Source of the DNA: an uncultured Flavobacteriales bacterium
GTDB taxonomy: Bacteria > Bacteroidota > Bacteroidia > Flavobacteriales > CAJXXR01
Direction: 5' to 3'
Assembly: GCA_913063375.1 (NCBI GenBank)
Contig: CAJXXR010000009.1
Coordinates: forward strand, 1 to 64,000
DNA: 64,000 nucleotides
Of the stretch, positions 4,389 to 18,458 are shown piece by piece. The notes below the pieces were generated by a model. That model made no database searches. It had not been told where the DNA came from and saw only the letters and a program-made list of their open reading frames with translations. The position numbers and the translations under genes were made by a program. Position 1 is the first letter of the stretch; each line of letters opens with the position of its first letter.

Positions 4389-5426
4389 TTAATTTTCCGG
4401 AACCCACGCGTCCCCTTCCGGAGCCTTGGCATTAGCAGGATTGCTACCTTCAAGGCTGATGATATAACTTGATATTTTTTGAATTTGAGCAGGTTTCAAT
4501 TGCGATTTCCATGCGATCATACCTTTATCTGGAACACCGTATTTGATAGAAGAGAAGACATTTTTGATCCCTCCACCGTGTTTCCAAAATTCGTCAGTAA
4601 GGTTAGGTCCTACCAATCCTTCTCCATTCCCTCCATGACAGGCTGCACAAAGAGAAGTATATAATTTAGAACCTACTGTAAGATCAGATTCTCCAGTAAG
4701 AAGTTCAACAGAGGTTTCATCTATTAGGTTGGTAGCTGTAGCCTTGTAGGTTTCCATTGATTTTTTTGCAGCTTTTACTTCCATGGCATATTCCTGCTCT
4801 TGACCAGGAATATTATCAAATACATAGATATTTGCAAGATAAACTACACTCCATATTATGGTGATATAGAAAAAGGCTATCCACCAAGGTGGTAGATTGT
4901 TGTCCAATTCTCGGATTCCATCATATTCATGATCTAACATGATATCTCCTTCTTCTTCCAAAGGTTTTGCATCATCCAATTTTCGCATCATCTTCGATAC
5001 TAGTGTTGGCTTTGCTTTCTCTAGTGCCAATTCTTCTTCCGATTTAAGCATGTTTGAAAGCTTATTAATCGTTTTGAAGAGTGAATAGAAAGTAATGATA
5101 AGGATCATGCAGGCCAAGATCAATATGAATGCTGGAGCATCAATATTTTGAATGATTTCAGGTCCTATTAAAGATTCTCCTGCATGGGCTGTACCCATTC
5201 CAAGTCCAATCAATAGTAGCATTAAGTTTCCTTTGTTCTTTTTCTTTACTTGGTCAGCTAGAGTTTTGATAACTTTTGGTAAGGCCAATGCTAGAATCAA
5301 TAGTATGATAAACAGTACTAGAGTTAATAAATAATATGGATTATTTATAGATCCAGAGGCCTGTGCCCATGCTGGGGCAGACATTCCAAATATGGCAGCT
5401 AGACTAAGAGTGTATTTCTTTTTCAT
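4389..5426 (-). CDS. ccoP: Cytochrome c oxidase cbb3 subunit III, mono-haem CcoP
   Basis: 345 residues. There is a signal-peptide-like N-terminus ending near AQA (residue 22), two further hydrophobic segments (about 30-50 and 97-117), and a FixP-type N-terminal domain with EYDGIRELDNNLPPWW before a membrane helix (about 182-203). One cytochrome c domain follows, with haem motif C260-AACH264. Classical proteobacterial CcoP has two CxxCH motifs; only one is present here, as is usual in Bacteroidota. It transfers electrons to the CcoN-CcoO core. The extended membrane N-terminus precedes the FixP domain. The gene follows ccoQ by 39 bp. Confidence 0.93.
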   Translation of the reverse strand: MKKKYTLSLAAIFGMSAPAWAQASGSINNPYYLLTLVLFIILLILALALPKVIKTLADQVKKKNKGNLMLLLIGLGMGTAHAGESLIGPEIIQNIDAPAFILILACMILIITFYSLFKTINKLSNMLKSEEELALEKAKPTLVSKMMRKLDDAKPLEEEGDIMLDHEYDGIRELDNNLPPWWIAFFYITIIWSVVYLANIYVFDNIPGQEQEYAMEVKAAKKSMETYKATATNLIDETSVELLTGESDLTVGSKLYTSLCAACHGGNGEGLVGPNLTDEFWKHGGGIKNVFSSIKYGVPDKGMIAWKSQLKPAQIQKISSYIISLEGSNPANAKAPEGDAWVPEN

Positions 5427-17742: not shown

Positions 17743-17808
17743 AGCTTGTTCGTTTTCTTCAGAATGTTACAGTTTTCTTCAGTAGGATTGAGCTATAATA
17801 AACTCATG

Positions 17809-17847
17809 AAAAATTGCTGGATGTGTTGGGGTACAACCTAATCCAGC
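17809..17847 (-). terminator. Attenuator-like terminator in the leader of the fusion gene
   Basis: On the minus strand GCTGGAT (17841-17847), an imperfect middle (TAGGTTG/CCAACAC) and ATCCAGC (17816-17822) form a long stem, followed by AATTTTTC. It lies 66 bp before the ATG of the MetX-AK-HSD gene and directly after the stop of a 49-codon leader ORF. This is the expected place for a riboswitch- or translation-controlled terminator. Confidence 0.65.
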
Positions 17848-17997
17848 CTATAGCATCGAAATAGAACTCTTGAAAAAATGAAAGAATAAGCCACTAAATA
17901 GAAGGGTCAAGCAGCTATTGGTAAAGACAATAGCCTTTCCTGTAGTGGAGGTCGCCTCTAAAGAATAAGAAGCGTTAAAAGAAATAAACGTAGTCAT
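17848..17997 (-). CDS. Candidate 49-residue leader peptide
   Basis: ATG at 17997 to TAG at 17848, within the long leader between the SAM-I aptamer and the MetX-AK-HSD gene. The peptide begins MTTFISFNASYSLEATSTTG and is rich in Thr, Ser and Phe (seven Thr in 49), with a hydrophobic C-terminal half. Its stop codon abuts the 5' arm of the attenuator hairpin. It also contains a 7-bp hairpin (GCTATTG/CAATAGC, 17914-17934). No strong Shine-Dalgarno sequence is seen, which is normal in Bacteroidota. It may be a regulatory uORF or a chance frame. Confidence 0.4.
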   Translation of the reverse strand: MTTFISFNASYSLEATSTTGKAIVFTNSCLTLLFSGLFFHFFKSSISML

Positions 17998-18117
17998 TTT
18001 TCTACTTTTTGAGTTAATGAAAAATTAAATCAAAAGTCAAATCACACAGTATTTGTGCGGCTTACTAGAAAAATGTTAAAAAGAATAGACGACAATTACG
18101 GGTAGTAATTTCGTTCC

Positions 18118-18227
18118 GTTATCTATCTCAAGCAAATATGCTCTTGTAGAAGTTAGCACCTTCTTTGTATAGAACAAAGGGTTGCTAAGGTTTCCTTGGG
18201 TCTAATCCCTCCACCTTTCTTGATAAC
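18118..18227 (-). ncRNA. SAM-I (S-box) riboswitch aptamer
   Basis: The minus strand carries the S-box landmarks in order: GTTATC (P1 5' arm, 18222-18227), AAGAAAGGTGGAGGGA, GAAACCTTAGCAACC, AAGGTGCTAACTTC, a P4-like hairpin (CAAGAGCATATTTGCTTG) and GATAAC (P1 3' arm, 18118-18123). The P1 arms are perfectly complementary. SAM-I aptamers bind S-adenosylmethionine and repress methionine genes. The downstream gene encodes MetX-aspartokinase-homoserine dehydrogenase, which agrees. The aptamer ends 375 bp before that start codon, an unusually long expression platform. Confidence 0.92.
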
Positions 18228-18421: not shown

Positions 18422-18455
18422 AAAAGGCTTCAAGTATTGTTGAAGCCTTTTATAT
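18422..18455 (-). terminator. Terminator of the ECF42-YCII-YHS cluster
   Basis: A perfect stem AAAAGGCTTCAA (18422-18433) / TTGAAGCCTTTT (18440-18451) with a 6-base loop lies 7 bp after the stop of the YHS-like gene, with a T-rich tail on the minus strand. Confidence 0.85.
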
Positions 18456-18458
18456 TCG

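Follow-up and report, generated by a model that had tools for sequence, protein, structure and literature searches.

A SAM-I riboswitch ahead of metX-thrA with a start-sequestering platform that probably outlived metY

Why should a SAM-I riboswitch lie several hundred nucleotides from the gene that it precedes? The question arises in a 64,000-nucleotide stretch of DNA from an uncultured Flavobacteriales bacterium (the window), in which all features of the leader and its gene are read from the minus strand. The initial annotation had placed a SAM-I aptamer at 18118-18227, 375 bp ahead of a trifunctional methionine-branch gene, and had proposed a search with the Rfam model RF00162. This covariance-model search returned a minus-strand match over the full model (18229-18116; model positions 1-108) at 76.9 bits against a curated threshold of 44.4 (E = 2.5e-16), which extends the first-drawn boundaries by two bases at either end. 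The gene (metX-thrA; 17742-14344, 1132 aa) is indeed trifunctional, with a MetX-like acetyltransferase domain (residues 12-317), an aspartokinase domain (327-769), and a homoserine dehydrogenase domain (773-1130) assigned by NCBIfam and Pfam. Judged by its sequence, the aptamer is a typical representative of SAM-I, and its location fits, with the methionine-pathway gene metX-thrA downstream. A block upstream of the aptamer (ATATTTGCA, 18263-18255) resembles the Bacteroidetes TAnnTTTG -7 element, is invariant in an alignment with three metY leaders, and is a candidate promoter. Further upstream, a strong bidirectional terminator hairpin (18423-18458; -21.6 and -13.3 kcal/mol) ends the preceding gene; transcription of the riboswitch therefore very likely begins at a promoter of its own. 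In the literature we found nothing specific on Flavobacteria SAM-I platforms or on the MetX-aspartokinase-homoserine dehydrogenase fusion.

The leader is long by any standard of the order. Its aptamer-to-ATG gap, 373 nt by the refined boundaries, is the longest resolved aptamer-gene gap among the ~90 Flavobacteriales SAM-I leaders inspected (L098 set aside). Nearly all of these have their first gene at a distance of ~25-240 nt, mostly 25-190 nt, with a few at 206-297 nt, the largest value being that of L090 (297 nt), which makes the leader of the window exceptionally long. Other large raw gaps in the leader table were discounted as TTG or GTG starts overlooked by automatic calling.

Where, then, is the expression platform? 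The initial annotation had pointed to a hairpin at 17809-17847 as the only terminator-like structure and as part of an unusual, distant platform. The hairpin exists (-13.8 kcal/mol, with an AAUUUUU tail), and a weaker terminator-like one lies at 18059-18043. Counting both strands, the 64 kb contain about 100 hairpins that are at least as stable as -10 kcal/mol and carry a T-rich tail, and two As part the 17847-17809 stem from its U run; for these reasons, the hairpin is not strong evidence alone. Within 125 nt of the aptamer there is only a weak hairpin (-6.8 kcal/mol), and 268 nt separate the aptamer from the strong one; this is not the arrangement of a transcription attenuator. SAM-dependent attenuation at the distant hairpin would require a long-range antiterminator. 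Such control would draw on a fairly stable hairpin with a U run, and families f6 and f15 of the order do have classical terminator-like hairpins with U runs close to the aptamer. However, no pairing partner is evident in the aptamer, 228 nt including a 49-codon open reading frame (ORF) separate the platform described below from the end of the hairpin, such hairpins are common in the window, and aptamer-proximal elements explain switching without it. We therefore consider attenuation at the distant hairpin improbable. The platform appears to begin immediately past the aptamer. A search of the leader for a second RNA family found none.

Two elements directly after the aptamer suggest a translational platform instead. 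The first, UUCUUNNUAAC, is common to the window and 23 metY leaders and lies about 20-40 nt past the aptamer, with conservation at 20-37 nt in the metY leaders; in the window, it forms the putative antisequestor UUCUUUUUAAC (18085-18075). The element complements the P1 5' strand and the adjoining junction (GUUAUCAAGAA), and its alternative partner in the window, AUGUUAUCAAGAAAG (18230-18215), is predicted to pair with it when P1 is open. With P1 open, this pairing has a predicted probability of 0.78-0.99 in 23 of 24 leaders, the exception being one in which the wrong element was selected automatically. At the second aptamer base, 14 of the 24 leaders have a T-A pair and nine have A-T, one two-sided change. 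Compared with shuffled leaders, the set of 24 stands out; the window leader taken singly does not, being matched by 24 of 200 shuffles.

The second element is a sequestor strand, CAUUUUUCUA (18075-18066), that can form 10 bp with UAGAAAAAUG (18004-17995). The latter region holds the start codon at 17997 and, by alignment with metY leaders, corresponds to the metY start. In one clade of metY leaders the same two strands pair over 9-11 bp at the metY start, and in a second clade UGAUUUU pairs with AAAAUCA. Between sequestor and start lies the small linker hairpin (18059-18043, from the terminator-like scan), at a place where metY leaders carry hairpins of different sequence. The 10-bp helix of the window is by itself only mildly exceptional (94 of 2000 shuffles), yet its fit is specific for one start: -10.8 kcal/mol at 17997 versus -4.1 kcal/mol at the metX start. 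Hence, the window has both a P1-complementary element and a start-complementary strand, but the sequestered start belongs to the 49-codon ORF and not to metX. The start that the switch would control is predicted to be 17997 rather than that of metX. In equilibrium folding of the whole leader, this start is paired whether P1 is forced or excluded, and P1 likewise has no effect in most leaders; switching must therefore rest on the order of co-transcriptional folding. Across the Flavobacteriales, the pairings suggest that SAM-I switches act mostly by sequestering the start codon of the first gene.

Relatives in which metX-thrA directly follows the aptamer bear on this model. In these, the sequestor strand is altered together with the start codon, be it AUG, GUG, or UUG. 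The sequestor/start pairs are CACUUUUCU/AGAAAAGUG in genome G094, CAAUUUCU/AGAAAUUG in two metagenome-derived genomes, AACUUUUCU/AGAAAAGUU in G327, CAUAUCUUUCU/AGAAAGAUAUG in G101, and UUUCCA/UUGGAAA in g4 genomes. The strongest argument for a platform that would hide a start codon comes from such compensatory changes. The sequestor of the window, unlike those of these relatives, does not look refitted to metX. In several loci (L148, xL023/L023, L024-L031, L040, L041, and L044), metX-thrA has no in-frame ATG near its N-terminus. There, UUG or GUG appears to serve as the start codon, as the matching sequestor strand supports; such starts may be overlooked by automatic annotation.

If the platform was not built for metX, for which gene was it built? 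The region from the promoter-like block to the start (18263-17989) aligns as a homolog of the metY leaders of family f3, and leader pieces outside the aptamer match the sequence just upstream of metY with E values down to 2.7e-8. In the f3 relatives, the gene order is aptamer-metY-metX-thrA. From its sequence and position, this metY probably encodes O-acetylhomoserine sulfhydrylase, and f3 is probably Flavobacteriaceae, since the named relatives that carry the fusion (Wenyingzhuangia, Ochrovirga, and Christiangramia) belong there. Similarity between the window and the metY leaders stops about three codons past the start at 17997. From that start runs the 49-codon ORF (17997-17848), whose first three codons are metY-like and the rest unrelated; neither tblastn nor local alignment revealed a metY remnant in it at a level better than shuffles. 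The metX-thrA start follows 255 bases past 17997 and 105 nt after the ORF stop. A search of 298 genomes of the order for the origin of the segment 17990-17743 gave just short AT-rich matches. An insertion of mobile or repeated DNA in the leader was rejected, as the genome holds no second copy. The absence of metY between the switch and metX-thrA explains the length of the leader.

A close metY was not found in the assembly, which is 83% complete, and the organism may carry one elsewhere. The assembly does encode three members of the metY enzyme family, each only 30-35% identical to an f3 metY, one of which lies downstream of a MetX-homoserine dehydrogenase fusion in a second SAM-I locus. In a quick maximum-likelihood protein tree of metX-thrA, the window groups with five f3 genomes (SH-aLRT 99), and G001, the sole other genome of the window's family, lies far off (39% identity to the window protein). 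For IleS from the same contig, the identities are 67% (f15), 66% (f14), 65% (G029, an f3 genome), and 62% (G001), so this protein is not f3-like. Together, these two placements make horizontal acquisition of the metX-thrA operon probable, and a misbinned contig as the source of the odd tree position was rejected because of IleS. Alternatively, the assembly may have dropped metY from an organism that has it, or the contig may be wrongly joined; in favor of this, the assembly is in 34 contigs, and the homology ends sharply. Such an artefact is nevertheless improbable: estimated contamination is 0.1%, metX-thrA is intact, IleS on the contig fits a separate lineage, and the intervening 240 nt are unique and not a collapsed repeat.

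We suggest that the window probably carries a SAM-I OFF switch with a start-sequestering platform that was built for metY, has outlived it, and may now affect metX-thrA indirectly. A Flavobacteriaceae-type operon of aptamer, metY, and metX-thrA would have been acquired and metY then lost; the homology is plain from the alignment, and the order of events is what we infer. The loss would have left the whole switch and the first codons of metY in front of unrelated sequence. Without SAM, UUCUUNNUAACAUU would pair with the 5' strand of P1 and hold the sequestor off the start; with SAM, P1 would close and the sequestor would mask the start region. These steps are suggested by the conserved pairing and the compensatory changes. 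At low SAM, a ribosome would then read the 49-codon ORF and halt at the foot of the hairpin at 17847-17809, hindering termination or polarity. Since the ORF stops at the base before the hairpin, a terminating ribosome could cover the hairpin's 5' arm. At high SAM, the ORF would stay silent, and transcription would fail more often before metX. Some relatives (L012 and L017) have an intercistronic metY-metX hairpin at this place and others do not. The relay from the switch via the ORF to metX-thrA is the weakest step, and even granting the rest we lean slightly against it. The full two-step device, in which a gene-less SAM switch licenses a short meaningless ORF and a ribosome at the hairpin foot prevents termination before metX-thrA, seems doubtful to us. 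Only in the form of such a relay could the suggestion of the initial annotation that the leader combines two signals survive.

The same ORF permits two other interpretations. In one, the switch is orphaned: the start at 17997 is still controlled, the signal is not passed on, and metX-thrA is made irrespective of SAM. The ORF looks non-coding, with a codon usage that resembles non-coding frames, and the platform is unadapted to metX, unlike those of the relatives; moreover, the genome has its second SAM-I-controlled metX-homoserine dehydrogenase locus. All three points suit an orphaned switch, whereas an intact 10-bp platform and an intact metX-thrA frame do not, and some selection therefore probably persists. 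We give orphaning a real if minority chance, nearly as likely as the relay via ORF and hairpin. In the other interpretation, the ORF encodes an amino-acid leader peptide, for example for threonine, that attenuates metX-thrA and is stacked behind the riboswitch. The ORF ends right before the hairpin and seven of its 49 codons are Thr, but these form no regulatory codon run, the codon usage is that of non-coding sequence, no set of mutually exclusive hairpins was recognized, and no homolog of the ORF was found in 298 genomes of the order. A leader-peptide attenuator is thus very improbable, and a threonine leader peptide in particular was rejected for want of a codon run and a coding signature. 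We return to a metY platform that outlived its gene as the preferred reading.

Further loci of the order show related arrangements. The second SAM-I riboswitch of the same genome (L038, 3167-2840, minus strand; G000:C2) lies 221 nt before the MetX-homoserine dehydrogenase fusion. A 29-codon ORF begins 7 nt after its aptamer, and its stop directly precedes a long-loop GUGGUG...CACCAC hairpin with ACUUUU, a layout similar to the ORF-hairpin-metX arrangement of the window. In family f15 (L159-L162), the SAM-I aptamer is immediately followed by a terminator-like hairpin of the classical kind with a U run. Between this hairpin and metX lies a short ORF whose start is conserved (MKK.. at the N-terminus); in G036, its last residues are MCCCCC, which recalls polycysteine leader ORFs. 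In L024, L029, and L031, a conserved short ORF ending MC[IP].VC (e.g., MNNLKFQFTNNSTVNKMIAAKAIMCIYVC) lies ~690-890 nt upstream of metX on the same strand and precedes a conserved 64-69-codon ORF; it is a possible cysteine leader peptide. Lastly, in L040 (4549-4667, minus strand, and 4820-4921, plus strand), a SAM-II riboswitch before metK divergently adjoins the SAM-I riboswitch of a metX-thrA or metY-metX-thrA operon, and a similar arrangement occurs in L024, L029, L031, L041, L044, and L133. In a 2007 survey, SAM-I and SAM-II were not found together in any species (PMC2258182).

These results offer a concrete platform model for Flavobacteriales SAM-I switches. The apparently strange leader becomes a traceable event, in which the switch would have gone on targeting a start codon that had lost its gene, and the relatives provide a record of riboswitches re-addressed by rewriting the sequestor strand to a new start codon. 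Gene loss beneath a riboswitch becomes directly testable through the match between sequestor and start. The locus also cautions that a large aptamer-to-gene distance is no proof of an unusual platform.

How does the locus compare with known systems? SAM-I attenuators of the Firmicutes type have an aptamer-proximal terminator with an antiterminator built on P1. The window shares the aptamer family and the OFF logic with these but lacks a proximal terminator, its only strong hairpin lying 268 nt after the aptamer. Translational control is the commonest platform outside Firmicutes (PMC2258182), and the translational SAM-I leaders of metY, metX, and metH in Flavobacteriales (L133, L077, L112, L057, and others) have the same element order and spacing as the window. 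What those relatives sequester is the start codon of an actual gene (metY or metX), whereas the start sequestered in the window opens the 49-codon ORF, with the gene 105 nt past the stop. The principle of an ORF relay would not be new, as ppe2 of Mycobacterium tuberculosis has a B12 riboswitch with a translated upstream ORF, and the main gene was experimentally shown to need translation of this ORF, mostly through termination-reinitiation (PMC11260477). There, a translational OFF switch precedes the upstream ORF and the main gene comes next, a plan that the window would share; ppe2 differs in ligand and riboswitch class. Recently orphaned "pseudo-regulatory" riboswitches have been raised as a possibility (PMC2258182), and the window resembles these in having a functional-looking aptamer that no longer stands before its former target gene. 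It differs in that the next gene still belongs to the methionine pathway and the lost target, metY, can be named.
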